Below are positions 4,105-46,288 of a stretch of 46,739 nt of DNA, piece after piece; the first letter of the stretch is position 1, and each line of letters starts with the position of its first letter. Location of the stretch: positions 1 through 46,739 of the forward strand of contig LT649279.1 of the NCBI GenBank assembly GCA_900128395.1. The letters are read 5' to 3'. The notes below the pieces were generated by a model. The model made no database searches, was not told the DNA's origin, and saw only the letters and a list, made by a program, of their open reading frames with translations. A program made the position numbers and the translations under genes. The stretch is from Stramenopiles sp. TOSAG23-2 (taxonomy: Eukaryota > Sar).

Positions 4105-7100
4105 ATGTTAAATCATATTGGTAGGATAAGGAAGAATTATGTGAAATTTATTTTATTATCTACCACGAAAAACAATGTAAAACATAAAAGTACATCAACG
4201 ACAAAAAAATCTAAAAATATTTTACGGCATACTTTAAACTTACCAAAAACAAATTTACCAATGAAAGCAAATGCAGCGAAAAGAGAGCCTTATATGGTTG
4301 ATAGAACAACTACGAACTTGTACAAATGGCAGCAAGAGATGAAACGAGATTATGAAAATGATTATGTTTTGCATGATGGGCCACCATATGCAAATGGTTC
4401 GTTACATATGGGACATTTATTAAATAAAACTTTAAAAGATATTGGAAATAGGTATCAATTATTGAATGGTAAACGAATTGATTATATACCTGGTTGGGAT
4501 TGCCATGGTCTACCGATTGAATTAAAAGCATTACAGAACCTATCTCAAGACGAGAGGGAAAAGTTATCGCCTGGTGAAATACGAGAGTTGGCTCGCGAAG
4601 TAGCAATAGAAGCGATTGAGGGACAGCGTAATGATTTTAAAAGATGGGGTGTTATGGCGGATTGGCGAGATGTACAGGATAATAATTATACAACTATGAA
4701 CAAAGAATATGAATTTGCACAGCTTGAAATTTTGCAAGAAATGATTTTAAATGGTATTGTTTATCGTGGTTTAAAACCGGTTTATTGGTCTCCATCATCA
4801 CAAACTGCATTAGCGGAAGCTGAGTTAGAATATAAAGATCATTTAAGTCAATCGGTCTATGTAAAATTTAAATTCAAAGATTTTGGAAATGGAAATTTAA
4901 ATGATTTATTTGTAAAACATATTAGTAATAACAACAACGAAGACGTATATGCACTTATTTGGACCACAACGCCATGGACAATACCTGCAAATATGGGTTT
5001 ATGTGTTCATCCAAATGTGGAATATAGCATTGTACGCATTTTAACAAACAATGATAATAGCGAGGGATCATATCTTATAATAGTTGCTACTGAATTATTA
5101 GATCAGATTGATAATTTAATGGCTGAAACAACTTCCATTGAACGACTTGGTAATGGTGACTATAATATCCTTTTTAAAGTAAATGGTGACGATTTTAACA
5201 ATGGTGCTGCATGTTACCATCCAATGAATAAATCGCGTATATCTCCATTTTTGTTAGGTCAACATGTAACAACTGATGCTGGAACTGGTATTGTTCATAC
5301 AGCACCTGGACATGGACACGATGATTATATAGTATGGAAGCAAAAAGAAGAAGAAGAAGATAATGATATATCATCAAACAATAGCAATGATATTGCCTGC
5401 CCAGTCGATGATTATGGTAAATATACGGAGGATATAAATAAATTGATTGATTGTTCTGGTACGAATGCAGTAAATTTTATTGGAATGTCGGTTTTAAGTG
5501 ATGGCAATGATGCTGTTATCGATTGTTTGAAAGATACTAATATGTTGTATCATAAAAGCAATTATATACACCGTTATCCACACGATTGGAGGACAAAAGG
5601 TCCAGTAATTACAAGGGCAACGAAACAGTGGTTCGCAAATGTTGGGAAATTGCATAATGATGCTACAAGGGCACTTCAAGATGTTAAGATGATACCTCCA
5701 GTAAGTTCTACGCGTTTAGAAAATATGGTAACTGGCCGAAAAGAGTGGTGTATATCTAGGCAAAGACATTGGGGTGTGCCAATACCGGTATTTTATAATG
5801 TACATGATGGAACTGTTTTAGCGACAGAAGAATCTTTATCGCATGTTGGAAATTTAATAAGGGAACATGGGACTGATTGTTGGTGGACGATGTCCATGGA
5901 AGATTTATTACCACCAACAATTGTAAATTCAAATAAAAGTAATGATTATATTAAATGTACGGATACATTAGATGTGTGGTTTGACAGTGGTTCTTCATGG
6001 GCATCTGTTCTAAAGCAAAAAGGCTTAAAAGTACCTGCTGATCTATATCTAGAAGGTTCAGATCAACATCGTGGATGGTTCCAATCATCACTATTAACAT
6101 CATTAGCAGTTGGTAATGGCTTTGCACCATATAAAAATTTGTTAACACACGGTTTTGTATTGGATGAACATGAACGGAAAATGAGCAAATCATTAGGCAA
6201 CATTTTGGAACCATCGATGGTAATAAATGGTGGCAGGACAAAACCAAGAGAAATAATTGAAGAACCTACGGTTGTTGCTGATGCAGCTGCTGAAGGCAAC
6301 GATGGGGATAATGCGAAAAAGAAAAAAAAGAAAAAGCAAAAGAGAATAAAAGTGAAAGCTGTAAATTGGCCTGCATATGGGGTAGATGTTCTCCGAATGT
6401 GGGTAGCTTCAACAGATTTCACACATGATGTTGTTATTGGCCCAACAAATGTAAAAAAGGTTTCTGAAGCATTACGTAAAATACGTAATACTGCTCGTTT
6501 CATATTAGGTAATTTAGATTCTAGTAAGGAAAATGCGGTAGATTTTTCCAATGAAAATAAAATCAACGTTGATGTAGATAGTTTATCACCATTGGATAGT
6601 TTAATGATTTACCGTTTGGAAACATTTATACAGGAAACTGCCATTGCATATGAAAATTTTAATTATAGAAAAGTCTTTGATTTAGTTCAACAAATGATAT
6701 CTAATGATCTATCTGCGTTTTATATGGATGTATCAAAAGATCGTCTGTACTGTGATGACAAAAATGATTTAAAACGTAAACAATGCCAAGATGTATTGGT
6801 ATACACGTTAAAGGCATTATTAGCTGTCGTTGCACCTATCGCACCATTTACTTGTGAAGACATATATCAATATTATATCATCGATAACAATAAAAATGAA
6901 AAAAGTGATAATCAAAAGATGGAATATGTAGATAAAGATACCGGTAAAGGGACTGGTGTTTATGATGTAAATTCAGTTTTTCAAAATTTACAATGGCCAT
7001 CGCTTTCAAATACATCATCATCAGATAGAAAATCGAACATTTTAAATGGGTGGAAAATTATTAGTGCAACCCGTGATGCAACCAAGCGTCAAATTGAAAA

Positions 7101-7521
7101 TATACGTAAAGAAGATATTATAGAGCTTGGAGATGATTTAGAAGCAAAGGTTCATATTAGTATTATTTCATCGAAAAATGAAAATGTTGCTTCAAACGCA
7201 TTTTTGTTATTTAATAATGATTTAGAAGACATATTTGGCACGTCTCAAGTTACAGTAGAATATAAAAATATTGCTAACATGTCTGATGCAGCAGAGAGTA
7301 ATTCAACAGCGTATTCAGAGGTTGTAAATATATCCAATGAGGTTAATATTGTAGTTGTTGTTGATCAAGCAGATGGTGACAAATGTTTGCGTTGCTGGAA
7401 ATATTCCCCTAGTGTTGAAGAAGTTGATCTTGAACAAGTTATTATTTCAGATGATTCAGATGATAATGACAGTATGGTACCTTTGTGCCCAAGATGCAAA
7501 GAGATTGTTTGCGGTTGTTGA
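4105..7521 (+). CDS. IARS2: Isoleucyl-tRNA synthetase, bacterial/organelle type
   Basis: This class I synthetase charges tRNA-Ile; the bacterial-type form points to the mitochondrion. Its 1138 residues begin with a basic, Ser/Thr-rich, acid-poor leader (about 1-65) typical of a targeting peptide. HIGH is H101-M-G-H104. The CP1 editing domain shows the Thr-rich WTTTPWTIPAN segment and GTGIVHTAPGHGHDD. KMSKS is K692-S696. An anticodon-binding helical region follows, then a C-terminal zinc site with C1094, C1097, C1128 and C1131, as in bacterial IleRS. Oddities are an insert of about 45 residues with a poly-Lys core directly after KMSKS, acidic or Asn-rich inserts in CP1, and an acidic loop inside the zinc module. 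The start follows an aacaaaacATG context and the stop is TGA. Only about 100 nt separate it from the convergent gene downstream. Confidence 0.95.
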   Translation: MLNHIGRIRKNYVKFILLSTTKNNVKHKSTSTTKKSKNILRHTLNLPKTNLPMKANAAKREPYMVDRTTTNLYKWQQEMKRDYENDYVLHDGPPYANGSLHMGHLLNKTLKDIGNRYQLLNGKRIDYIPGWDCHGLPIELKALQNLSQDEREKLSPGEIRELAREVAIEAIEGQRNDFKRWGVMADWRDVQDNNYTTMNKEYEFAQLEILQEMILNGIVYRGLKPVYWSPSSQTALAEAELEYKDHLSQSVYVKFKFKDFGNGNLNDLFVKHISNNNNEDVYALIWTTTPWTIPANMGLCVHPNVEYSIVRILTNNDNSEGSYLIIVATELLDQIDNLMAETTSIERLGNGDYNILFKVNGDDFNNGAACYHPMNKSRISPFLLGQHVTTDAGTGIVHTAPGHGHDDYIVWKQKEEEEDNDISSNNSNDIACPVDDYGKYTEDINKLIDCSGTNAVNFIGMSVLSDGNDAVIDCLKDTNMLYHKSNYIHRYPHDWRTKGPVITRATKQWFANVGKLHNDATRALQDVKMIPPVSSTRLENMVTGRKEWCISRQRHWGVPIPVFYNVHDGTVLATEESLSHVGNLIREHGTDCWWTMSMEDLLPPTIVNSNKSNDYIKCTDTLDVWFDSGSSWASVLKQKGLKVPADLYLEGSDQHRGWFQSSLLTSLAVGNGFAPYKNLLTHGFVLDEHERKMSKSLGNILEPSMVINGGRTKPREIIEEPTVVADAAAEGNDGDNAKKKKKKKQKRIKVKAVNWPAYGVDVLRMWVASTDFTHDVVIGPTNVKKVSEALRKIRNTARFILGNLDSSKENAVDFSNENKINVDVDSLSPLDSLMIYRLETFIQETAIAYENFNYRKVFDLVQQMISNDLSAFYMDVSKDRLYCDDKNDLKRKQCQDVLVYTLKALLAVVAPIAPFTCEDIYQYYIIDNNKNEKSDNQKMEYVDKDTGKGTGVYDVNSVFQNLQWPSLSNTSSSDRKSNILNGWKIISATRDATKRQIENIRKEDIIELGDDLEAKVHISIISSKNENVASNAFLLFNNDLEDIFGTSQVTVEYKNIANMSDAAESNSTAYSEVVNISNEVNIVVVVDQADGDKCLRCWKYSPSVEEVDLEQVIISDDSDDNDSMVPLCPRCKEIVCGC

Positions 7522-7623
7522 AAAAAACGGAAAAGGAAGTTTGTGTGGGGTTGTAAAAAAATGCGCATAAATATTATATATATATATGATACTCTTATAT
7601 TTGAGAAAGCAAGATAAAAACTT

Positions 7624-8825
7624 CTACAACTTGGACTCTGTCAATCTCATTTCACCAGGCTTATTCTGATCTGGGCCTACCCATCTATTTACACGACTAA
7701 ACTTCTCAGTATAACCATATACACCCCAAACCTTATACCCCATTCTTTGTTTTAACTTGTTGTTACATTGATGAAAGACATCTTCTCGCAATCCTACATG
7801 AATATTTTCTTGTTGTCTCATATTCGGTGTATGACAATATTGAAATATCAACGGTCTTTCTCCATCCTTTCTGACATTAGCACCAGCTGCATGCCAAAGA
7901 CGCCCATCGAAGATAACAATTGTACCAGCTTCACTGTGGAGCGTATGAATGAGTGACGTGTTAGAGAATATCCTTTTTTAGGTTTAGGGGAAAAATGGAA
8001 TTTTACTTACCAATTAAAATTTACAGTCGGAAAAAGTTTTGTAAATTCTGAACTAAGAGGAGGGTAAATACCAGTAAGGTGGCTGCCTGGAACAACATGA
8101 GTTCCACCATTTGTTTTATCAACATCACATAGACAATAAACGACTTGGCAATATATCGGTGGTGGAATCATATCTGGTAAAGGAGTATCTCTTAAAGATG
8201 ATATTAGTGAATGTAATGTAAAAGGTTCAGATGGCCATCTTGAAAATAGTTCTGGTGCGTAGGCGTCTGCGCCACCATATCCTTTAGGAGTTTTCCCATT
8301 ATTCTTCATTACTGCTTCGCGACTGCTATAACGTATTGTATTTCCTGCCTGATCGCAATGCAGAGCTTGAGGAATGTTGCCAGGCCTTACAACATTTGCC
8401 CATAATGATCCTAACATCCACTTAGGATGTAATAATTTATCAACTAATAAAGATGGGGTTTCAAGGGTTACAAGTGAACGAAAACATTCTCCCTTGTTGA
8501 CTAACATGAAGACTTTTTGGTTCGGCTGGTCTTCTTCCTTTTGTATTTTAAAAGTATCGTGAACTTTATCTCCAGTATATTCTAAACCATCCTTTGTTGC
8601 TATACCTGCTTCAAGTTCCGCTTCCATTTGCTCTTTCAATCGTATTCTCAACTTTTTGAGGTGTGTTGATGATAATCCATTTTTTATATAACAATATCCA
8701 TATCTATATAAATCATTCTCCAGCTGTGTTAAATCTTCCGTAGGTTTTGGCAATTCATCTATATTTACATTTAATGGAGGAGGCAATAATTTTGCCAATT
8801 CTGGCGTCAACGGTGTTGTTTTCAT
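7624..8825 (-). CDS. Peroxisomal phytanoyl-CoA dioxygenase family protein (two exons)
   Basis: This is an Fe(II)/2-oxoglutarate oxygenase of the PhyH family. Exon 1 is 8825-8011 and exon 2 is 7933-7624, giving 374 residues. The join is in frame and reads NFN-C-EAGTIVIFDGRLWH across the splice, restoring the expected strand between the metal ligands. Iron ligands are the H-C-D triad in ALHCDQAG and the distal His of DGRLWHAAGAN. The protein ends in Ser-Lys-Leu, a canonical PTS1 peroxisomal signal, which fits alpha-oxidation of a branched acyl-CoA, but the substrate is not shown. PhyH relatives act on many small molecules. It is divergent from the secreted-protein gene at 9035 with 209 nt between starts. 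Confidence 0.88.
7934..8010 (-). other. Spliceosomal intron, 77 nt
   Basis: On the minus strand the donor is GTAAGT, directly after exon sequence ttttaattg, and the acceptor is ctccacAG before tgaagctgg. Removing 77 nt joins two parts of the dioxygenase domain in frame; without removal the reading frame stops two codons past the donor. Confidence 0.88.
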
Positions 8826-9034: not shown

Positions 9035-10243
9035 ATGGTTAAATATATTAGTACCATTAGGTCTATGTTTACTATTATTTTTATAATTGTTACTGTAATA
9101 ATGTCTTCTTTCAATAATTACTATTTATGTGTTGCTCAACATGCACCTCCAATACCGGTAAATGTACCTTCAATACAAAGATTGAATCAAGATCATACTT
9201 TACCGACAAAGAAAAGACAGATAGAAGACCATATAACGTTAACAACAAAGCGTAAACCATGGCGAGGCCCGTCAAAATTATCCACTTTAAAATTAAAAGG
9301 TTATAAACATAAGATAGAAGAAGTTTTACCAACACGTTTAAAACTATTAAATACAACCGAACGTGTTAAATTTAATAATGACTTAGCAAAACAACAGGAC
9401 TTTTTGCGAAATATCGCCAACGGAAACGATGTTGCCCCTCCCCTCCAAGCACAGCAACAACAACGCAATAATATACAAAGTGGTACAACGATAGAGACCT
9501 CCCCAAGCACTATTAAAGAATTAGCAGGTGAAGCACTAAATGCTATTACAAATTTGCGACAAACTGGTCAATTGCGTTGGTCAACAAAGGAAAAAGATGT
9601 TTTAAACCAAGTTGCTAATGGGCAATTTCGATTGCCAGTAAATATCCATGGCAAAGCACAAACATCAAAATATGAAAATAAAATTATTCCATTATATTCT
9701 AAAAAACCAACCCAAACTATGGATTCATTATTACAGCAATCAAAGCCATCGCATCATGGACGTTTAGCCAATAACAAAATTGATAAATTAAAAATGGAAG
9801 GAGATTGGAAAAAATTTATAAAAAATAAAAAAAATTTAATACCACCTTTAGAAGGTGTGAAAAAACATCTTCGATCGCAATCAACATTGTCACCACATCA
9901 TCGACAAAACTTACAATCATTTGAACAACATCAACAGCAAATGCATTCAAGGCAACAGCAATTTAACAATCAAGGGCAATATGGCGTAAAAGGAGTTGAT
10001 ATAGATAGTTTTGATCCGTTTGAGCATGACACTGAAACGAATGAACAAGGACGAAAGAAGGCACCGATATTGAGAGAGCCACCAAGTCATTCTTTAGGTG
10101 TCATTGCAGGTGGGCCGAGAGTTGGTATAGCTGGTAATGGTGGTGATAGTGGTAGTATATCAGCTCAAATTTTACAAAGTGCACCACAATATCAGTATAC
10201 AAAATTAGATAAATCTGCATGGCCAGCTGGTGGAAATAGTTAA
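9035..10243 (+). CDS. Secreted Gln-rich protein of unknown function
   Basis: I do not recognise this 402-residue protein. It starts with a hydrophobic segment (about residues 7-33, rich in Ile, Val and Phe) that looks like a signal peptide or signal anchor. The rest is basic and low in Cys, with Gln/His-rich tracts (about 140-150 and 290-325) and a Gly-rich stretch near 350-375. That suggests a secreted or cell-surface protein with much disordered sequence. It shares a 209-nt divergent spacer with the PhyH gene. Its last 39 nt overlap the 3' end of the opposite-strand App1-like gene. Confidence 0.7.
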   Translation: MVKYISTIRSMFTIIFIIVTVIMSSFNNYYLCVAQHAPPIPVNVPSIQRLNQDHTLPTKKRQIEDHITLTTKRKPWRGPSKLSTLKLKGYKHKIEEVLPTRLKLLNTTERVKFNNDLAKQQDFLRNIANGNDVAPPLQAQQQQRNNIQSGTTIETSPSTIKELAGEALNAITNLRQTGQLRWSTKEKDVLNQVANGQFRLPVNIHGKAQTSKYENKIIPLYSKKPTQTMDSLLQQSKPSHHGRLANNKIDKLKMEGDWKKFIKNKKNLIPPLEGVKKHLRSQSTLSPHHRQNLQSFEQHQQQMHSRQQQFNNQGQYGVKGVDIDSFDPFEHDTETNEQGRKKAPILREPPSHSLGVIAGGPRVGIAGNGGDSGSISAQILQSAPQYQYTKLDKSAWPAGGNS

Positions 10244-12304
10244 GCGCTGGTGATAGTTGTCTAGACTTGCGTGTATGCTAAAAATGACATTTCTACCACG
10301 TTTCCCTGTAGACTCACCAAAATATAATCCAGACAAGTCATTAGTTGCTGCTTCTACTATTCTGACAAAAGCATTACGATTAATTAATTTAGATTCCATT
10401 GCTTTGATTGCCGCATCGACATAATTTCTATGAAATGTTAATCCATTATCAATGTAATGTTGCTTTAATTCACCATCACCAGTTGCATCTTTATCTTCAT
10501 TGATATTATGTATAAATACACCACGTACATTATTGTTCCCGTCCGAAACATCATCTTTTAATGCCATTAAACCCAACCGGGCATCACCTTGTCCACTATC
10601 ACCCAATATAACATAGTCGTATTCCGGAAACATATCACTGTATTCACGGAAGTTTGCATATTTTTTTTCTGCCATTTGCTGACTAGAGAATAAATGTTGA
10701 AATGAACCACTTAACAATGTTGCTTGTTTAGATACACCACTACGATTTAGCCTATTACTTGTCAATGTTGTAACAAGACTACGCCAACCTTTCGGTCTTG
10801 CAGTTAAAAATGCAACATTATTTATATCAACATCCTTTCCAACTGTATCTATTGAAAACTCGCGAGATATTGAACCAGCCTTTTTGTATTTTTCAATAGT
10901 GTTGGATACTTTTTCATCATGAATAAAATCATCAATGTTATCTTCGTCCTTTGGCATATTATTATTAAGATCGATTATCATATTATTATCATAATTGTTG
11001 TTGCTATTATTATTATATTCTATAAATAAATCATCATCTAATGCGTTTATCACATTTACATGGCTTGATATTTCTTTTTTTTTTTTAAGATTAGAATCCA
11101 TATTTATTCCTTTCCTATTAACATTACTACTTAAAGAATCGAAATCCCAAGCAAACTTCATGCTACTATCATCAATTAGATTTTCTTTTATAATGTTTTT
11201 ACGTTTTCTTAATTTTTCAATGCATCTTTTTATTGTAATTTCTAATTCTTTTACATCATCATCATTATTATTATTATTCTTATTATTATCAGTTGTCTTC
11301 ATAAATGAACTCATTTCAACTTCATCTAAAAATGCTTTTACACCTGGATAAACACAATTTCTAGGATATCTTCGATCATGTAAAACACAAAATATGGTAT
11401 CATCTATATCCGACAAAACTTTAATTGGCTTTGATTTATTTTTCAACAGTAGACCTTTTGTCAATAGTAACGCTTCATTTTTTATATGTTTTAAGATCTT
11501 TATTTTTAATTTTTCAGCTATGTCAATAAAAATTAATTTCTGCAAATTAAACCTTGTACCACCGGCCATCAGTAAATTTTTCAAATCTTTCAATTCCTCA
11601 CCATATGTATGTAAAATTAGTTTGCCAACAAAATCTTCAACATCACTATTATCTCTTATATTACCATTGGCATGCAATGATTTAATAATTGCACATTTAC
11701 TTTGGACGGATAATTCTTCCAGGCGCTTATCAGATAGTAAATGAATTAAAACTTTCATTGCATTTTTTTTCTTTTTCCCAGTAAATTGCTTAAATATCAA
11801 TGCAGCATTCATTGTTTTTCTTGGTGTTAATTTTCTTTCTTCGGTAATGTGGTTACTATTCATAACATCAAATGAATCTCTAAGTCTTCCTCTTCTGGTG
11901 CGACGATGTAATGAGGTTAACACTCGATTTAAATCTTCTTTTTTACAGTGGCGCAAAATCCATAATAATGCCTTTTCAATTCCAACTGAATTTCTATCAT
12001 TTGCCATATAACTTTTAGACTGCAACAATAGCTCAACAGTTTCTAATGTATTGAACATATTTTCATTTAAAAACGAATCACCGTTACTCAAATTTCCATG
12101 GACATCATCCCCTCTTTTGATGACAAATGACTTGTGAAAAAAACGCCGAGATATTTGTTGAATATTTTTATGCTTATTAGTGTCAGTTTTGACAAATAGT
12201 TTTCCATGGTATAGAATATTATTATTATTATTACTATTTACAGCAATACGTTTCGTTCGTATTGCAATTTGTCTTGCAATTGTAGAAATGGAACTTCGCA
12301 TCAT
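10205..12304 (-). CDS. App1-type (DUF2183) HAD phosphatase domain protein
   Basis: This 699-residue protein has a C-terminal domain resembling yeast App1, the Mg-dependent phosphatidate phosphatase of the HAD superfamily. The nucleophile motif is SDIDDTI (D-x-D-D-T), followed later by FLTARPKGW and the App1-type acidic motif ILGDSGQGD. A long Asn/Asp-rich insert separates motif 1 from the FLTARP motif. The N-terminal 55 residues are basic with Arg, Ser and Asn and few acids, so mitochondrial targeting is possible. Residues about 90-290 are helical and match nothing I know. Phosphatidate as substrate is inferred from the family. Divergent from the SelO-like gene; the 3' end overlaps the convergent gene by 39 nt. 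Confidence 0.75.
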   Translation of the reverse strand: MMRSSISTIARQIAIRTKRIAVNSNNNNNILYHGKLFVKTDTNKHKNIQQISRRFFHKSFVIKRGDDVHGNLSNGDSFLNENMFNTLETVELLLQSKSYMANDRNSVGIEKALLWILRHCKKEDLNRVLTSLHRRTRRGRLRDSFDVMNSNHITEERKLTPRKTMNAALIFKQFTGKKKKNAMKVLIHLLSDKRLEELSVQSKCAIIKSLHANGNIRDNSDVEDFVGKLILHTYGEELKDLKNLLMAGGTRFNLQKLIFIDIAEKLKIKILKHIKNEALLLTKGLLLKNKSKPIKVLSDIDDTIFCVLHDRRYPRNCVYPGVKAFLDEVEMSSFMKTTDNNKNNNNNDDDVKELEITIKRCIEKLRKRKNIIKENLIDDSSMKFAWDFDSLSSNVNRKGINMDSNLKKKKEISSHVNVINALDDDLFIEYNNNSNNNYDNNMIIDLNNNMPKDEDNIDDFIHDEKVSNTIEKYKKAGSISREFSIDTVGKDVDINNVAFLTARPKGWRSLVTTLTSNRLNRSGVSKQATLLSGSFQHLFSSQQMAEKKYANFREYSDMFPEYDYVILGDSGQGDARLGLMALKDDVSDGNNNVRGVFIHNINEDKDATGDGELKQHYIDNGLTFHRNYVDAAIKAMESKLINRNAFVRIVEAATNDLSGLYFGESTGKRGRNVIFSIHASLDNYHQRLTISTSWPCRFI

Positions 12305-24764: not shown

Positions 24765-25529
24765 TCAAGCCAAACCAGCTATTTTCTCCCATCCTTCAAA
24801 AGTTGACATATTCAAAGGCACTTGTACTGCATTATTACATACGATTACCCCCGTTGGCCCAAATACAATCAAACGTGGAATTCCACTGACTTGAAAGTAA
24901 CTAGAGACTTGATTTCGCGAAGGTGCTTCATAAGGCAATGCTAGCCATGTATGATGTTGTTGAAAATAAGTAATAAATGATGATGCATCACGGTCAGCAG
25001 ATACAAACATGATTTCAAATTGCTTTTTTGCTTTCTTAACTTCTTTGTAAAATGCATTCAACATTGGAGTAAATTTTCTACATGGTGGGCACCAGCTTGC
25101 AGAGAAATATAACGCAAACAATCCATTTCCTACTGTGTCTATACTAACCATCTTCCCTTTCGTCGTTAATAATTGCTTTCCCAGCATGTTACTGACAATG
25201 GGATTCACTCCGTCCATTGTTTTATATGGTTTGGATTGATTTGACCATTTTGATTCTTTATTTAAACCACGAAAACGAAACATATAATTTGTTGATGCTT
25301 TTAAGTTATTTTTTTTCATTATATTACCACTCAATTTATTTGACAGGGTCAACCATTCCTTATCTTTGTCACTTTTAATTTGGATTTCATATGTTGTAGA
25401 ATTTTTTATTTCTTCCCATTGGACAGTTAGTGACGTGGATGTTGCTGTTACTAATGTAGGTGATGCAGGGGTTATCTCCGTTTGTTCCATTGGGGTTGTA
25501 TTCTTTTCATTTTCTGATATTGCAGACAT
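24765..25529 (-). CDS. FN3 domain - thioredoxin-like (nucleoredoxin/tryparedoxin type) protein
   Basis: This 254-residue protein joins a fibronectin type III domain (about 22-108; SLTVQWEEI, TTYEIQIK and NYMFRFRGLN mark the strands) to a thioredoxin-fold domain (about 112-245). The redox motif is W146-C147-P-P-C150 in FSASWCPPCRKF, the signature of nucleoredoxins and tryparedoxins, and GIPRLIVFGPTG holds the cis-Pro. It should reduce or sense disulfides in the cytosol, since no signal peptide is present. The FN3 part may bind a client or anchor the enzyme. Confidence 0.9.
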   Translation of the reverse strand: MSAISENEKNTTPMEQTEITPASPTLVTATSTSLTVQWEEIKNSTTYEIQIKSDKDKEWLTLSNKLSGNIMKKNNLKASTNYMFRFRGLNKESKWSNQSKPYKTMDGVNPIVSNMLGKQLLTTKGKMVSIDTVGNGLFALYFSASWCPPCRKFTPMLNAFYKEVKKAKKQFEIMFVSADRDASSFITYFQQHHTWLALPYEAPSRNQVSSYFQVSGIPRLIVFGPTGVIVCNNAVQVPLNMSTFEGWEKIAGLA

Positions 25530-31281: not shown

Positions 31282-34200
31282 ATGACGACTCCAATAATTA
31301 AAGAACGAAAAGCGAAAACGTTGCGGTCAAGGGATGGCTTGATTCAATACGCACGCAATGATTATTCACAAGGAGGGGAAGATGGTATTTTAGAAAAAAT
31401 ATTTACCATCTTAGATGAGGATGAAAGAAATAATAATAATAATAGTAATAATACAATTCAAAGATGGTGTGTGGACGTTGGGGCATGGGATGGAAAGCAT
31501 TTATCTAATACATATATGTTATTAAATTCAACAACGTTGAAATCAAAATGGTCGGGCGTCTTAATTGAAGCTGATGTTGATCGCTGTAAATCATTGAAAA
31601 AATTATATGAAAACAAGACAAATAATATCATATTGAATTATACCGTATCTTGTGAGAAAAATTCTGATTCATCCCTTGTTAATATCATTAAAAAACACGC
31701 GCCGACTCTACCAACCAATTTAGATTTTTTAAGCATAGATATTGATGGTGCTGATTACTGGGTATTAGTAGATGTGCTTGAGAATAGCAATATTCGGCCA
31801 AAATTGATTGTCATTGAGTTTAATCCTACTATGCCTGACAATATTGTATATGTACAACCACATAGCGATGAAATAAGACATGGATCTTCCCTTCGTGCTT
31901 TTTATGATTATGTCAAACCAAAAAAATATACATTAATTGAAACGACAATTTATAATGCATTTTTTATCCAAACAGAATTATATGAAAAATGTTTTAAAAC
32001 AATTGTAGCAGACACAAGTATTGAAGCATTGCATGAAGTGACGATGGGTACAACATTATATCAATTGTATGATGGCACTATAAAGATTGCTGGATGTAAA
32101 AAATTATTATGGCATCGATTACCGATACGTGAGGAAGATATACAAATATTAAAAAAAAAGAAAGAAAGATCATTTCCATTTATACCACCATCAACAATGA
32201 GAACTAATATTGACTGTAGTAACGAGAAACATAGTGTAGAGAAAATGGAAATATTTACATCAAATATAAAATGTAAAGCACCAACAAAAATAATTAATTT
32301 AAAGGCGTTTCTTAGTAGTGATCAAAAAAATAATCAAAAACAGACCAGTGAAAATTTATTGGATGCGTTTGGAAAGGATGGTTTTGCAATCGTAACTGGG
32401 ACACGGGCATCTATAGAAAGCTATTACAATGCACTGAAATCATGCAAAGATTTTTTTCTTGCACCTGAATATGTACGAAGAAGTACGCTCGCGAAAGATT
32501 ATGCAAGACGTGGTTATAGTCCATCATTGACTGAAAATTTTGCATCTTTAATTGGTAGTAAAGGACCAAACGATAGTGTACGAAAATTTAGAATTGGTCC
32601 TCCAAACGATTCTGATACACAAGCCTATAACAACAAGCTATCTGTATTGTTCCAACCAAATATTTGGCCAAGCAATAAAATGTGGACAAATAAATTAAAT
32701 AATAACATTGCCAATGATTTTAAAACGAATGTGATTGAATATTATAATATGATCTCTACAATATCAGATATTGTATTAAATGCCATTTGTAAATGTTTAC
32801 CTGACCAATCAATTGCAAAGGATATACAAAATGCAAATAATATAAAACCAAAATCATCCATTTTGACATTGTTGGGATATAAACTTGAAACGATTAGTAA
32901 TAAATCTAATGATGAAATAAATGAAAAAATACTAGTTGCTCCCCATACAGATGTTAGTGTGTTGACTATTTTGATATATGATGGTGATAGTGCAATATTA
33001 CAACGCCAAGATTCAAATGGTATATGGCAAGATGTGATTGTGAACAACGATAATAATGATAATCAAAATTATTCTAGCAAATCTGGACCAAAGTTTGTAG
33101 TCAATATTGGTGATTGTCTATCTGATATGAGTGGTGGGTTATTAAAATCAACATTACATCGTGTCATTCGTAATCCAAAGACAAGTAAAAGCAATACACG
33201 TAGTTGCCTGGCATTTTTTTTAGGCTTTGCTAGTGATGCAATTATCAAGGTTGGTAAAAGTAAAAATAGATTAGCATTAACATTTGAGGAATGGAGGAAA
33301 CAAAGGATACAAAAAGCAATGTCTATTTTGAAAAATAAGAAGAAAAATAATAAAGAAATGTTGTCTTTGACCGGAGCAAAAGTTACAAATATAAACGATT
33401 CCAAAATAGATAAAATACATATTGTCGATGTAGAAATATACATAATGAAGTATGAAAATAAAAAATTGGAATTATTGAAAATGTTACAACGTTTATTTTC
33501 TAAATCTATGCAAATAATTATTGACATAAAAACGAATAAACGCCATCCAGCAGTTGATAAATTTATACATGGACAATTGAAAAATGAATTTGGAAACTTG
33601 GAAGAGTTGAAAAAAAAACATAGTATTGTACATAAGGGTATCTTTCTAGTAGCACATAATGAAAAAGGTGCTATTATTGGTATGGTTGCAATTGAAAAAT
33701 CTTCTTATAAAGTGTCCGACAAAAATGTGAACAGTGCACAATCAAATAATATTGCAGTTTTAAAACACATGTGTGTATCTAATCAATACCGCTCAAAAGG
33801 TATTGGAACACGACTTTTGCGAACAGCATTAAATCATAGTTTATCAATGGGTTATTTAAAAGTCCATTTGGATACAATAGCGGGGATGAAATCAGCTCGT
33901 AAATTATATATAAAGCATGGTTTTCAAGAAATATCACGTAAAACATTAGGTTTGGGTTTAAAAGAATTTACGCTTGTCAAATATAGCATTGATTTATCAT
34001 TAACAAACACAATAAAGAAGCAGCCGAATGTAGAAAAACCATTATTACTTTCTCGTTTTGATGATTATCTTACTTTTTTTAAAGAATATGGATATGTAGT
34101 CATACCAAACATACTCTCGCCATCACAAATTGATCATGCTTTAAATGAATATGATAAAATGTTATTGAAATATGGCATAGATATAAAAAATAATTTAGTA

Positions 34201-35091
34201 GCAACTGCTAAAAATGCTCGTAAACTTTCATCGACACATGGGGCTGGTGGCATATTAGATTTATTCTATCCTAAATGGAAAATTGATTTAACATTAAATA
34301 ATCAATTATATTATCTTGCATATTTAAAATTATTGCAAGGCACATATGGAAGTTATGCTAGTTCTAGTATTATCGATGATTGTACAAGCGAAATATGGTC
34401 ACATCCATATAAAATAAAAAATAAAAACAAAGCTTTCATACATATCGATCGGATTGGTTGTCGTTTTCCAGATGATATTGTACAATCATCTGATGATTCC
34501 AACGATAAACAATTTCAACGTGGTTTAGCGCCTCACATGGATTGTTGTCCAAAAGATATAAATGGTGGTGGAGGAAAACAATTTCCAAGATGGCGACCAA
34601 TACAATGTTTGCTCTCTTTAACATCTACTATGAATAAAAATGAAGGTGGTTTTGAGTGTGTACCAAAATTTCATAAACAGTTCAAAACTTATTATGAAAA
34701 CAAAATGTTAAAACCAGTTGATAACAGTAGTACGAAGAAAGATAAAATTATTTGTGTTGGTGATTTTACACCAATGCGTGATCCAAAAATTTTGGAACAA
34801 TATCAACATATACCAATTCCAGCAGGAGCTGCATTATTTTGGGATCAGCGTTTACCACATGCAAATTCTTTTAAGAACAATTCAAATAAAACTCGGCGAT
34901 GTATTTATGGTGGATTTTTACCACATGTTGATAAGAATACTTTATATGCAAAAGAACAATTACAACGATTTGAAAAAGGATTGCCACAAGTTGATTTTTG
35001 GATGAAAGAACAAGAAGGAAGGTTATTTCAAGAAACAATAATAGAAAAAGAACAAATAAATGATTTGGGTTTGAAAATGTTAGGTGTTTGA
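31282..35091 (+). CDS. Four-domain enzyme: FkbM-like methyltransferase, IPNS-like 2OG oxygenase, GNAT acetyltransferase, PhyH-like 2OG oxygenase
   Basis: One 1269-residue chain holds four catalytic-type domains. (1) About 15-275: SAM methyltransferase of FkbM type, with VDVGAWDG (64-71) and LSIDIDGADYW (150-160). (2) About 345-665: isopenicillin-N-synthase-like Fe(II)/2-oxoglutarate oxygenase, with H555-T-D557, distal H626 and R640-x-C642 where most relatives have RxS. (3) About 690-905: GNAT N-acetyltransferase, with CoA loop R837-S-K-G-I-G842 and the closing ARKLYIKHGF. (4) About 915-1265: PhyH-like oxygenase, with H1085-M-D1087 and distal H1193. All metal ligands are present, so every domain looks active. 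No signal peptide. The ATG lies in a good aacaacATG context and no stop interrupts the domains. It probably tailors a small molecule or peptide through methylation, two oxidations and acetylation; product unknown. Confidence 0.85.
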   Translation: MTTPIIKERKAKTLRSRDGLIQYARNDYSQGGEDGILEKIFTILDEDERNNNNNSNNTIQRWCVDVGAWDGKHLSNTYMLLNSTTLKSKWSGVLIEADVDRCKSLKKLYENKTNNIILNYTVSCEKNSDSSLVNIIKKHAPTLPTNLDFLSIDIDGADYWVLVDVLENSNIRPKLIVIEFNPTMPDNIVYVQPHSDEIRHGSSLRAFYDYVKPKKYTLIETTIYNAFFIQTELYEKCFKTIVADTSIEALHEVTMGTTLYQLYDGTIKIAGCKKLLWHRLPIREEDIQILKKKKERSFPFIPPSTMRTNIDCSNEKHSVEKMEIFTSNIKCKAPTKIINLKAFLSSDQKNNQKQTSENLLDAFGKDGFAIVTGTRASIESYYNALKSCKDFFLAPEYVRRSTLAKDYARRGYSPSLTENFASLIGSKGPNDSVRKFRIGPPNDSDTQAYNNKLSVLFQPNIWPSNKMWTNKLNNNIANDFKTNVIEYYNMISTISDIVLNAICKCLPDQSIAKDIQNANNIKPKSSILTLLGYKLETISNKSNDEINEKILVAPHTDVSVLTILIYDGDSAILQRQDSNGIWQDVIVNNDNNDNQNYSSKSGPKFVVNIGDCLSDMSGGLLKSTLHRVIRNPKTSKSNTRSCLAFFLGFASDAIIKVGKSKNRLALTFEEWRKQRIQKAMSILKNKKKNNKEMLSLTGAKVTNINDSKIDKIHIVDVEIYIMKYENKKLELLKMLQRLFSKSMQIIIDIKTNKRHPAVDKFIHGQLKNEFGNLEELKKKHSIVHKGIFLVAHNEKGAIIGMVAIEKSSYKVSDKNVNSAQSNNIAVLKHMCVSNQYRSKGIGTRLLRTALNHSLSMGYLKVHLDTIAGMKSARKLYIKHGFQEISRKTLGLGLKEFTLVKYSIDLSLTNTIKKQPNVEKPLLLSRFDDYLTFFKEYGYVVIPNILSPSQIDHALNEYDKMLLKYGIDIKNNLVATAKNARKLSSTHGAGGILDLFYPKWKIDLTLNNQLYYLAYLKLLQGTYGSYASSSIIDDCTSEIWSHPYKIKNKNKAFIHIDRIGCRFPDDIVQSSDDSNDKQFQRGLAPHMDCCPKDINGGGGKQFPRWRPIQCLLSLTSTMNKNEGGFECVPKFHKQFKTYYENKMLKPVDNSSTKKDKIICVGDFTPMRDPKILEQYQHIPIPAGAALFWDQRLPHANSFKNNSNKTRRCIYGGFLPHVDKNTLYAKEQLQRFEKGLPQVDFWMKEQEGRLFQETIIEKEQINDLGLKMLGV

Positions 35092-35654: not shown

Positions 35655-36170
35655 TTAAACAAATGCAACACGGGGACCTGATACAAATACTGGTTTGTTT
35701 TGAATTTTTGCTGGTGCTTTGTAACGAGGATCGCTTACTTTATAATAAACAACAGCAAAACGATCACCATTCAAATTGCTCGTGTCTACCATATGTGGCA
35801 TTCTACCATCAAAGCATAAAATTTGTTCCTTGTACATACAATTGTATTGTTTTCCATTATCGTCATCATAAATTATTGTAGAGCAATTTCCATCTCCTAA
35901 TGTGAAGACATATTGTACATCAATATCATTTTCATCAACATGCTTCTTAAAATAATTTTCACTACTATTCATGTAGCTAAATTGAACGACTAAGTACTCG
36001 CCATCACCAGCATATAAAGGATTAACTTTATTGATTATTTTTAATGCAATGTCATATGCAGCAATTAACCATTTAGGCTTCGAAGATTTACGCACATCAC
36101 CTATAGCAGCAAGACCATTGCTGCTAATTATGAATAATATTGCTGTTAATAATAGAGTAAAACGATTCAT
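35655..36170 (-). CDS. Secreted miniature 2-oxoglutarate/Fe(II) oxygenase-like protein
   Basis: This 171-residue protein starts with a signal peptide (about 4-21, LLLTAILFIISS) and then little more than a double-stranded beta-helix core. Candidate metal ligands are H77-V-D79 in KKHVDENDIDVQYVFTL and H126 in FDGRMPHMVD. A following Arg (about 137, GDRFAVVYY) is placed to bind 2-oxoglutarate. The order HxD...H...R and the spacing fit the superfamily; the length is at its lower limit. Substrate unknown; action in the secretory pathway or outside the cell is inferred. It is convergent with the four-domain oxygenase gene. Confidence 0.65.
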   Translation of the reverse strand: MNRFTLLLTAILFIISSNGLAAIGDVRKSSKPKWLIAAYDIALKIINKVNPLYAGDGEYLVVQFSYMNSSENYFKKHVDENDIDVQYVFTLGDGNCSTIIYDDDNGKQYNCMYKEQILCFDGRMPHMVDTSNLNGDRFAVVYYKVSDPRYKAPAKIQNKPVFVSGPRVAFV

Positions 36171-36535: not shown

Positions 36536-37699
36536 TTACATCTTTGCACTACTTAAAATTAGCTCGGAACTTTCCATATCTGGCCATAAACTACAAACAT
36601 ATGTAACACCAGGTTCGCATTCATTTTTCACAGTCTTATCCCATATTTTCAATGTAGCTTCTGCACCATATGCCCTTTCAGGATTGAAGGTTGGCAATTT
36701 CCAATTGGCATATGCAGCTTGAGCTTCACTTAACATTTTTCCAACTTTTGCTGGCCCATGTTCTTTTTGTGCATTTGCCATTGCAACAAAAATTAAAAAT
36801 GGAGCTGGAGGGGCTCCTCCATATTGTTTCAATTCTTTCTTTAAAACATCAGGATTATCAGTACTAAACAATTTACCACCAAAACCTACATTTGTTTTTC
36901 CCACACTTCCAAAATCGATGATTGAGGAGCCAAGTGTTTTTCTTAAATCCGAATTGACTTTTGAATTTCCTGCCATATCATAAATAGCAAATTTACCATT
37001 ATTACTCAATGAAGAAATTGTATCATACGTCACAACAACATCGTATATACCTGTATCTTTGACAAATTGTACATTACGACTACTTGTAATACCAATTCGT
37101 TTCATATTAAAATTATGAAATTTTGCAGCAAATGCTCCAGTCAACGAAGTTCTACTAGAAGCTGATGTGAAAACAATTGAAGTTGCCCCTTTACTAACTG
37201 CTTGCATCGTTGCTGACCAACCAGTACCAAACAATAATCCATCTGCAGTCATCATGTCTTCATGGTCGACTTTTGAGACATCCAAAGGTTCACTTAAACG
37301 ATAATTTCTATATGCATTTATTAACTTTGACCGGTGTGGTGCAGTATCTTCAAATGCTCCTCGTTTAATTTTTGATGGTGTTAGAACACAATATTTACGC
37401 ATCGGAAAATATCCATGTATTCTTTGTCCAACTTGTACATGTGGTGAGCGAGATGCTACCACAATTCCAACCCCCCAGGCAGGAGAGGATGCAAAATTAG
37501 CATCCCCAGTCGGATAATGCACAAATGTTTTTAAGGAAACTCTGCCTAACAATGCGTAAGTGACTGTGTTAGATGTTAAAACAAATTTAGCAATATGCAC
37601 CAATACATCTCCTTGATTTATTGCTAAACTTGCAGTAAATGGTGCTACCTTTGCTTCCAACGGTGAAGCTTCGTTCATGACAATATGGTTTAACGACAT
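36536..37699 (-). CDS. DUF2855 family protein (MDR-like oxidoreductase fold)
   Basis: This 387-residue protein looks like DUF2855, a poorly studied family distantly related to medium-chain dehydrogenases/quinone reductases. Visible family features are an N-terminal strand ending NTVTYALLG, a WGVGIVVASRSPHVQVGQRIHGYFPM segment like the MDR substrate domain, a GTGWSATMQ helix, and a nucleotide-binding-type SIVFTSASSRTSLTGAFAAK strand-helix with IYDMAGN later. No zinc-binding Cys cluster is seen. Cofactor and substrate are unknown. Lying minus-strand just beyond two oxygenase genes, it could act on the same pathway, but no evidence links them beyond position. Confidence 0.75.
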   Translation of the reverse strand: MSLNHIVMNEASPLEAKVAPFTASLAINQGDVLVHIAKFVLTSNTVTYALLGRVSLKTFVHYPTGDANFASSPAWGVGIVVASRSPHVQVGQRIHGYFPMRKYCVLTPSKIKRGAFEDTAPHRSKLINAYRNYRLSEPLDVSKVDHEDMMTADGLLFGTGWSATMQAVSKGATSIVFTSASSRTSLTGAFAAKFHNFNMKRIGITSSRNVQFVKDTGIYDVVVTYDTISSLSNNGKFAIYDMAGNSKVNSDLRKTLGSSIIDFGSVGKTNVGFGGKLFSTDNPDVLKKELKQYGGAPPAPFLIFVAMANAQKEHGPAKVGKMLSEAQAAYANWKLPTFNPERAYGAEATLKIWDKTVKNECEPGVTYVCSLWPDMESSELILSSAKM

Positions 37700-44200: not shown

Positions 44201-46288
44201 TTACGTTGCTTCTTCATCTGTTTTACCATATAATCTACCAACTAAGGCCATGTCGCCATTTCCAAAACCTAAATCATTTTCAACATGATCATATATCTCC
44301 CCTACTTTTTCCGTAATTTTTAAATCAATTTTATTTTCCCTTGCTTCATTTAATATTATACGTAAATCTTTATACAAATTTTTCAATGGTGCCCCGCTAT
44401 TTTCCAATTTACTTGAATAAAAATCATAATCGACATCATTAATAACACCAAGACAACGTTCAAAAATTTTACTATAACCCCATGAATCTTTAATTAAATC
44501 ATTTAATAAATTTAAATCATCAAGACCTAATTCTTTGCCTAAAACTAACGCTTCATTAGCAGCAAGACTATGTATACCAACTAATAATTGATTAATTAAT
44601 TTTGCAGCAGTTCCAGCACCTTCACCTCCCATTAATACAATACGATTTCCCATTGCATGTAATGGTTGTTTCACTTGTTCAAATGCTTCTTTATGACCAC
44701 CGCACATTATACTCAATGTGCCCGCATTAGCTCCTTCCGGGCCACCTGAGATCGGTGCGTCCAGAAAATTTATGTTTGAAAAATTATCATTGAAAGCATC
44801 ATGGCATTCTTTTGATAATGTTAAGGAACATGTTGAATGGTCTAAAACAACAATATCCCTATCATCATCATCGCTTCTAGATTTTAAATTATTTAAAATA
44901 GAATTTGAATTATCTCCAATTAAAATTTCCCTGCATATTTCTTCGTTTGATAAACATACTGATATTATATTGACATTTCTCGTATGTTTCATCAAATCAT
45001 GTACACTTTCATATACATTAATAGTATCTGCTTTTTCAGGATACTTTGCCTTTAAATCTGTTGCTTTTTTCAACGTACGATTATAAACGTGAACGACAAA
45101 ATCATTTTTTATTAAATTTTCTACCATTCCGATACCCATATTTCCCAAACCGATAAACGCGATTTCTTCTTTTTCCTTTTTTTTGTTTTCATTTTTTATA
45201 TTTAAAAAATCTTCTGCATAAATATCCACCATGTCTTCTGCAGTCATATTTTTACCTGGCAAATCTAACGCTGATGCAATTTCACATTCAACATCTGATA
45301 ACATGGACCCGACAATGGTAGATAAGTTTTCATCAATATTTATTTCAGCATTACCAAATTTTAAATTATTTTTCGTAGCAATATTTGATGCATGTTCGTA
45401 TAAATCTTTTAATGTTACTGGAGTTGCAAATAGATTTGCTGCTCTATCTACACCAAAACCATGTTTTCGAAACGTTTCTTCCTCTGTATTATGTAATTTT
45501 ATCAAGGAATCAATTACAGATCGATGAGATATAACAGGGTGTGGCATATCCATAGGTATTTGAACATTTGACGTTTCACCATTTAATGGTTCACGCACGA
45601 TTCCAGAAAATATACTAGTTGTTGCAGCATTTGGAATACCTGGGCGTACAATGACTGTTGGCAAGCGTGCTGAACGACCTGTTAAATATCCTTTCCGATT
45701 ATAATCATTAATTAATGCTTCACAACATGCTTTTGTCATTCCATATGTAGTTTCAGGTAAAAATTTACTACCATCTGATGGGCAAAATAAATTTTCCTCG
45801 CTGCCAGATGTTTTGATTAATGAATTACGCCCAAACACAGCACCGGTAGATGAAAATATAAATGTTGTATGATTCTTATTTCCTCGTGCTGCTTCTAACA
45901 AGTTCATAGTTCCTTGTAAATTTGTTTGCAATGCTAAATCAAAATCTTGTTCCCCTTGACCTGACATAACAGATGCTAAATGAAAAATACTTGTTACATT
46001 GTTTTCCGAGGTTACGATGCTTTGTATGAAATCTTTTGATGCGACGTCACCATATTGGATGTCAAGGCTTACATTATATTGTTCAAATTCATTATTTAAA
46101 GCATTTAATTCGACTGCATTTTTTATTGCACTTGGATGATCAACTAATATTATTTTGGCAGGTTTTGTCAATGCATTACCAATTGGTCGACAAATTAAAT
46201 GTTCTGCTTGGGATATTTTTTTCGCTAAGTTCAAACCAATAAAACCTAAACCACCCGTTACCAATATTGCCCCTTGTTGCGTTGCCAT
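44201..46288 (-). CDS. Fusion: D-erythronate dehydrogenase-like SDR + L-threonate/3-hydroxyisobutyrate dehydrogenase-like enzyme
   Basis: This bifunctional protein has 695 residues. The N-terminal half (about 5-345) is an extended SDR close to bacterial DenD: Rossmann TGGLGFIG (11-18), HLASVMSGQGEQDFDLA, and Y182-x3-K186 in TYGMTKACCEALINDY, then RLPTVIVRPGIPNAATTS and the FSGIVREPLNG block typical of DenD. The C-terminal half (about 374-690) is a beta-hydroxyacid dehydrogenase of the LtnD/HIBADH group: FIGLGNMG, DAPISGGPEGANAGTL and the catalytic-Lys helix AAKLINQLL. In bacteria DenD oxidises D-erythronate and LtnD L-threonate, both to 2-oxo-tetronates that feed a kinase and decarboxylating step. 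The fusion therefore suggests breakdown of four-carbon acid sugars (for example from ascorbate). No targeting signal is evident. Confidence 0.88.
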   Translation of the reverse strand: MATQQGAILVTGGLGFIGLNLAKKISQAEHLICRPIGNALTKPAKIILVDHPSAIKNAVELNALNNEFEQYNVSLDIQYGDVASKDFIQSIVTSENNVTSIFHLASVMSGQGEQDFDLALQTNLQGTMNLLEAARGNKNHTTFIFSSTGAVFGRNSLIKTSGSEENLFCPSDGSKFLPETTYGMTKACCEALINDYNRKGYLTGRSARLPTVIVRPGIPNAATTSIFSGIVREPLNGETSNVQIPMDMPHPVISHRSVIDSLIKLHNTEEETFRKHGFGVDRAANLFATPVTLKDLYEHASNIATKNNLKFGNAEINIDENLSTIVGSMLSDVECEIASALDLPGKNMTAEDMVDIYAEDFLNIKNENKKKEKEEIAFIGLGNMGIGMVENLIKNDFVVHVYNRTLKKATDLKAKYPEKADTINVYESVHDLMKHTRNVNIISVCLSNEEICREILIGDNSNSILNNLKSRSDDDDRDIVVLDHSTCSLTLSKECHDAFNDNFSNINFLDAPISGGPEGANAGTLSIMCGGHKEAFEQVKQPLHAMGNRIVLMGGEGAGTAAKLINQLLVGIHSLAANEALVLGKELGLDDLNLLNDLIKDSWGYSKIFERCLGVINDVDYDFYSSKLENSGAPLKNLYKDLRIILNEARENKIDLKITEKVGEIYDHVENDLGFGNGDMALVGRLYGKTDEEAT

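Follow-up and report, generated by a model that had tools for sequence, protein, structure and literature searches.

A stramenopile reading frame joining a methyltransferase, two 2-oxoglutarate oxygenases and an acetyltransferase: a probable multi-step tailoring enzyme

The DNA analysed here is a 46,739-nucleotide stretch of Stramenopiles sp. TOSAG23-2 (contig LT649279.1, assembly GCA_900128395.1), referred to below as the window. On its forward strand, translation of positions 31282 to 35091 gives one frame of 1269 residues without an internal stop. Its product combines an FkbM-like methyltransferase (MT), an oxygenase of the isopenicillin N synthase type (IPNS), a GNAT acetyltransferase and a second, PhyH/Gig2-like oxygenase, in that order. 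An earlier note on this DNA had described a single uninterrupted frame with four domains, each keeping its catalytic landmarks; both statements are borne out, with D65-G71, H555/D557/H626, R837-G842 and H1085/D1087/H1193 at the expected residues. The protein was apparently built from a two-enzyme fusion found in many diatoms and a second piece carrying an acetyltransferase and an oxygenase. Its features are as follows (SAM, S-adenosylmethionine; 2OG, 2-oxoglutarate; HMM, hidden Markov model; A2, a 14-row alignment of the PhyH family).

31282..35091, plus strand: single open reading frame (ORF) of 1269 residues, MT-IPNS-GNAT-PhyH
31318..32193, plus strand: FkbM-like SAM methyltransferase, residues 13-304, including a C-terminal extension with W277-H278 (family HMM)
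31474..31494, plus strand: SAM motif DVGAWDG, residues 65-71 (kept in homologues)
32272..33336, plus strand: IPNS-type oxygenase (DIOX_N and 2OG-FeII_Oxy), residues 331-685 (Pfam, family HMM, PDB profile)
32944..32952, plus strand: predicted iron ligands H555 and D557 (HTD), identical in 123/123 homologues
33157..33159, plus strand: predicted iron ligand H626, H in 120/123 homologues and a gap in 3
33199..33201, plus strand: probable 2OG-binding R640, R in 121/123 homologues and a gap in 2
33337..33525, plus strand: linker from the MT-IPNS module to GNAT, residues 686-748 (no Pfam match; coding score of frame 0 still highest)
33526..33981, plus strand: GNAT acetyltransferase, residues about 749-900 (Pfam, PDB)
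33790..33807, plus strand: acetyl-CoA motif RSKGIG, residues 837-842
34051..35019, plus strand: PhyH/Gig2-like 2OG oxygenase, residues 924-1246 (family HMM, Pfam)
34534..34542, plus strand: predicted iron ligands H1085 and D1087, invariant in A2
34858..34860, plus strand: predicted iron ligand H1193, invariant in A2
34894..34896, plus strand: probable 2OG-binding R1205, invariant in A2

Given the base composition of the window, 1269 stop-free codons would arise by chance with a probability of about 7e-45. In 28 of 29 tiles, those over the linkers among them, frame 0 has a higher codon score than any of the other five frames; the remaining tile is the last one, which holds nine codons and the stop. 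Length and codon score together rule out a chance frame. The start codon agrees with the N-termini of diatom homologues, and the stop codon falls where PhyH family members end. A second deposited copy (P0002), on an NCBI contig of 4179 bases and presumably from an independent assembly, also encodes 1269 residues. It differs by four substitutions (M467I, S818N, C1034Y and H1215Y), all of which spare the catalytic residues named in the earlier note. This copy, and the presence of the domain junctions in other proteins, rule out a simple assembly join.

A Pfam search returned the four domains in the claimed order, with the FkbM match just below its cut-off. PF05050 aligns to residues 145-186 with 21.2 bits (cut-off 22.7) in the whole protein and with 21.9 bits when residues 1-690 are scanned alone. 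Among seven bacterial relatives scanned, the same family is above cut-off in two and found at E 0.01 in five; one of the others matches a different O-methyltransferase family and one matches nothing. It also appears in the precomputed annotation of three among the best 120 of 261 proteins matched by the first half. The family HMM gives the MT domain 434 bits, the query itself being in the training set. A DxGxxxG motif followed by an acidic residue, which we take to be the SAM-binding motif, is present: D65, G67 and G71 are identical in 116 of 123 MT-IPNS homologues (gap in 7), and E96 is kept in 122 (gap in 1). W277 and H278 of the extension are invariant in all 123.

In the IPNS-type domain, DIOX_N (PF14226, residues 337-465) and 2OG-FeII_Oxy (PF03171, residues 550-647) are above their Pfam cut-offs, and an HxD...H...R pattern is found, as it is in the PhyH/Gig2-like domain. 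By family, H555, D557 and H626 would be iron ligands and R640 would probably bind 2OG. Position 642, which belongs to the RxS motif, is cysteine in 102 of the 123 homologues and serine in 10. The nearest solved structures by profile are thymine dioxygenase, TraH and related oxygenases.

Three GNAT models lie above the Pfam cut-off within residues 774-889 (PF13508, E 1.3e-12), and PDB entry 2gan matches residues 749-900 with E 0.001. The RSKGIG sequence fits R/QxxGxG/A, presumably the acetyl-CoA motif of this fold. The top NCBIfam match is RimI, far under its cut-off (30.1 versus 86.4 bits).

The C-terminal domain scores 507 bits with its family HMM, again with the query in the training set, and both PhyH (PF05721) and Gig2-like (PF07350) are above cut-off within residues 1105-1268. 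Here H1085, D1087 and H1193 are presumed iron ligands and R1205 the presumed 2OG binder. The assignments support the proposal that the two oxygenases come from different branches, IPNS-type and PhyH-type. Catalytic residues are intact in all four domains, which makes degeneration, or a structural role alone, less likely.

Used as a query, the whole protein matched 36 proteins, among which all four domains occur only in P0002; 31 others match the MT-IPNS half, three the MT only and one the PhyH domain. Both this and the search with the first half scored the 8000 candidates sharing most words, so that other four-domain proteins could be missed. Profile searching with the first half gave 261 matches, of which the best 120 were taken in. 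The resulting 141 proteins (including the query and P0002), mostly retrieved with the MT-IPNS half, were typed with three profiles, GNAT not being among them. They comprise 123 MT-IPNS proteins (one with a split MT match), two MT-IPNS-PhyH proteins (the query and P0002), three with MT alone, 11 with PhyH alone and two with an IPNS-like domain and PhyH. MT precedes IPNS in all 123 two-domain homologues. Thirteen of these carry an organism name and all 13 are of diatom origin: ten were confirmed as diatoms in NCBI taxonomy, and Cylindrotheca fusiformis, Skeletonema dohrnii and Nitzschia sp. share genera with the ten. The MT-IPNS proteins are annotated as 'isopenicillin N synthase-like dioxygenase', 'Fe2OG dioxygenase domain-containing' or hypothetical; we found no reported function for them, and no description of such fusions in the available text of open-licence PubMed Central papers.

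The query belongs with this family, as its FkbM-like MT followed by DIOX_N/2OG-FeII_Oxy can be aligned over both domains. Its chain does not end after the oxygenase and continues for about 580 residues, making it an extended variant. In a tree of 37 rows (36 of the 123 homologues and the query), rooted at the midpoint for drawing only, the query sits apart from the 36 homologues on a long branch, a position that the branch length makes uncertain, and Leptocylindrus is the next split. The earlier note had known of no described protein with this order of domains. This holds for the full order, which only the near-identical P0002 shares among the 36 whole-protein matches. It does not hold for the parts: the first half is a recurrent pair, from diatoms in every named case, pairings of the second half's oxygenase with another oxygenase recur, and there is one likely acetyltransferase-oxygenase pairing.

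Residues 690-1269, used as a query, retrieved 13 relatives, every one matched in the PhyH domain. Four are taxonomically named: Aphanomyces and Saprolegnia (oomycetes), Pelagophyceae sp. CCMP2097, and the pelagophyte Aureococcus. By the three profiles, the first three lack a second domain. In the Aureococcus protein (P0049) and a near twin (P0043, 34 member sequences) an IPNS-type oxygenase precedes PhyH, and P0040 and P0048 each contain two PhyH stretches by Pfam. The PhyH domain of P0039 is 63% identical to that of the query. The start of this protein, ahead of PhyH, aligns to the GNAT tail with a score of 71, whereas the best of 2000 shuffles reached 42. In the PhyH tree a single clade with full support unites the query with P0038 and P0039; the program cautions that long branches meet between this clade and the P0047/P0048 group. 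These comparisons suggest that the GNAT-PhyH join probably predates this species. The join of the MT-IPNS half to the GNAT-PhyH half is seen only in the query and P0002.

The MT subfamily has other partners and neighbours. P0037 carries it at the N-terminus (35% identity), followed by a NodU-type carbamoyltransferase. In P0035 and P0036 a homologous MT domain, C-terminal extension included, is followed by long unmatched regions; the end of P0035 looks, by eye, like a membrane anchor. A glycosyltransferase or Wzt-type exporter gene lies near the MT gene in three of the seven bacterial loci whose neighbours were scanned. A bacterial operon model for MT and IPNS was rejected, with no IPNS-family match in 80 bacterial loci, several of them on short contigs. 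PhyH-like genes occur in the fetched DNA of five of 106 loci (strong in L041 and L080, weak in L050, L055 and L056), a count in which L041 itself supplied the sequence searched with; these co-occurrences are too few to lean on. In L041 itself (5974-7618), from a metagenome-assembled genome of Pelagibacteraceae, an MT-family gene stands beside a PhyH gene on the opposite strand. A viral origin was likewise rejected: a scan of viral contigs with A2 found no relative, and a scan with profile A1 found 22 viral loci, all within query residues 7-259, the MT part. In the genome to which the window belongs, the whole-protein search, scoring the best candidates only, located three more matching places (one PhyH-like, two MT-like) and no additional copy of IPNS.

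The window has 33% G+C and long open frames on both strands, looks eukaryotic and lies in an assembly of 17.45 Mb and 793 contigs. Its genes include a trehalose synthase/phosphatase-type protein, a class I (I, L, M, V) tRNA synthetase, RCC1, a sulfatase and a purple acid phosphatase; Rfam and tRNA scans of the window found nothing. Diatoms, pelagophytes and oomycetes, to which the named relatives of the protein's two halves belong, make a stramenopile source likely. Downstream of the fusion gene, at a distance of about 560 bases, a 171-residue ORF (35655-36170, minus strand) has a possible signal peptide and, by eye, an HxD...H pattern recalling a small 2OG oxygenase; it has no Pfam match and no PDB match below E 0.37. 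Nearby, 36536-37699 (minus strand) encodes a DUF2855 protein (E 1.2e-54), which in the PDB resembles only an ene-reductase, and that weakly (E 0.025). A PhyH ORF at 8007-8825 (minus strand) lacks the distal part of the domain, either because an intron or a frame break interrupts it or because the gene is truncated. Two further chains join domains: 44201-46288 (minus strand) fuses an NAD-dependent epimerase-type short-chain dehydrogenase/reductase to a 3-hydroxyisobutyrate-dehydrogenase-like enzyme, and 24765-25529 (minus strand) carries a fibronectin type III and a thioredoxin-like domain. The convergent ORFs 9035-10243 (plus strand) and 10205-12304 (minus strand) overlap at their ends by 39 bases (10205-10243).

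The protein is probably a multi-step tailoring enzyme. We favor, with a probability of about 0.68, a real composite in which a stramenopile MT-IPNS bifunctional enzyme and a GNAT-PhyH module act on one acceptor or in one pathway. The single frame, the domain identities, the conserved catalytic residues, the separate MT-IPNS proteins and the PhyH fusions to other oxygenases can be read directly from the sequences; from them we infer the four activities, the shared pathway, the order of the activities and the direction of fusion. In this lineage, a GNAT-PhyH module would have been joined to the bifunctional enzyme. The FkbM-like domain would transfer a methyl group, probably to oxygen, each of the two Fe(II)/2OG domains would oxidize a C-H bond by hydroxylation or desaturation, and the GNAT domain would acetylate an amine, the substrate being one acceptor or successive intermediates of one pathway. 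The site of action would be inside the cell and outside the secretory route: a simple hydropathy scan found no strongly hydrophobic N-terminus in the query or in the 118 MT-IPNS homologues starting with methionine, and a secreted enzyme or one targeted to the endoplasmic reticulum is therefore unlikely. A stricter form of this proposal, an assembly-line enzyme that methylates, twice oxidizes and acetylates a single metabolite, its first half being an undescribed MT-oxygenase common in diatoms and part of an unnamed pathway, can be put forward tentatively. As for the acceptor, a sugar, an amino sugar or another small metabolite of that kind is a doubtful guess, made because of the glycosyltransferase and Wzt-type genes at three of seven bacterial loci and the MT-carbamoyltransferase fusion P0037.

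Several observations weigh against the composite enzyme. PF05050 is weak within the family itself (five of 29 members at E 0.01), and PDB searches with the protein and with a profile matched no solved FkbM-type methyltransferase. In P0039 no more than some 50 residues of the GNAT tail are present, and the Pfam scan of this protein at E 0.1 gives no GNAT family. The IPNS-like domain of the Aureococcus-type fusion is a distant relative, with 70 bits to the A1 profile, where the best solved structure, thymine dioxygenase, scores 51. The fusion may therefore be a different pair of enzymes, and the argument for a shared pathway is weaker for it. No homologue of the IPNS family or of the C-terminal PhyH family was found in the fetched DNA around the MT gene at the 80 bacterial loci, and four of ten neighbors scanned at such loci have no Pfam match.

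Three other explanations were weighed. The two halves could be a tandem fusion, sharing a chain and each serving its own pathway. Neither half needs the other, since 123 retrieved proteins consist of MT-IPNS and lack the second half, while oomycetes and a pelagophyte have PhyH-family proteins that lack the first; the window also holds further domain fusions. However, a GNAT-like tail is joined to PhyH in a second protein and PhyH to another oxygenase in at least four (P0040, P0043, P0048 and P0049), which goes beyond chance tandem fusion; we consider this explanation rather unlikely. Less probable still is an enzyme modifying protein or RNA instead of a small molecule, after the logic of ALKBH8, in which an AlkB-type 2OG oxygenase and a SAM methyltransferase share one chain with an RRM and act on tRNA. 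RimI, the top if distant NCBIfam match of the GNAT domain, is a protein acetyltransferase and would fit such a role. Among Pfam matches of the query up to E 1, however, there is no RNA- or protein-binding domain, and no AlkB, RRM or tRNA methyltransferase family; the nearest solved oxygenases (thymine dioxygenase, TraH, SpoC and SnoK) are by name small-molecule enzymes.

The explanation we consider least probable is that the frame runs through neighboring genes, or that in-frame introns remove a domain junction from the transcripts. It would suit a eukaryotic-looking organism, and the PhyH ORF at 8007-8825, which ends at profile position 155 of 213, indicates that introns or broken genes may exist here. 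Yet the coding score of frame 0 stays highest across both linkers, and P0002, possibly itself a DNA-based gene call, reads as the same 1269 residues. Moreover, the MT-IPNS junction is present in 123 other proteins and the GNAT-PhyH junction probably in one. Under the composite reading, the MT and IPNS pair of diatoms, the IPNS-like and PhyH pair of Aureococcus, the GNAT-like tail with PhyH of a second protein and all four domains here are linked clues, and one stramenopile pathway is therefore predicted.

Compared with known systems, the C-terminal domain belongs by sequence profile to the same family as GIG2 (PDB 6akz), YbiU (2dbi), SnoK (5epa) and PHYH (2a1x), with weak and partial similarity (E 1e-4 to 3e-3). 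ALKBH8, compared by description only, also pairs a SAM methyltransferase with an Fe(II)/2OG oxygenase in one chain; it differs in its AlkB-type oxygenase, the opposite order and its tRNA substrate. P0037 shares the N-terminal MT subfamily, whereas its partner is a carbamoyltransferase. P0049 and P0043 likewise end in a PhyH domain from this family (40-45% identity) and have an IPNS-type oxygenase ahead of it, but are without MT and GNAT, and their IPNS-like half is distant. The MT-IPNS proteins stop after the oxygenase, without GNAT or PhyH; up to that point they have the same order as the query, 33-46% BLASTP identity to residues 1-690 and the same catalytic residues.

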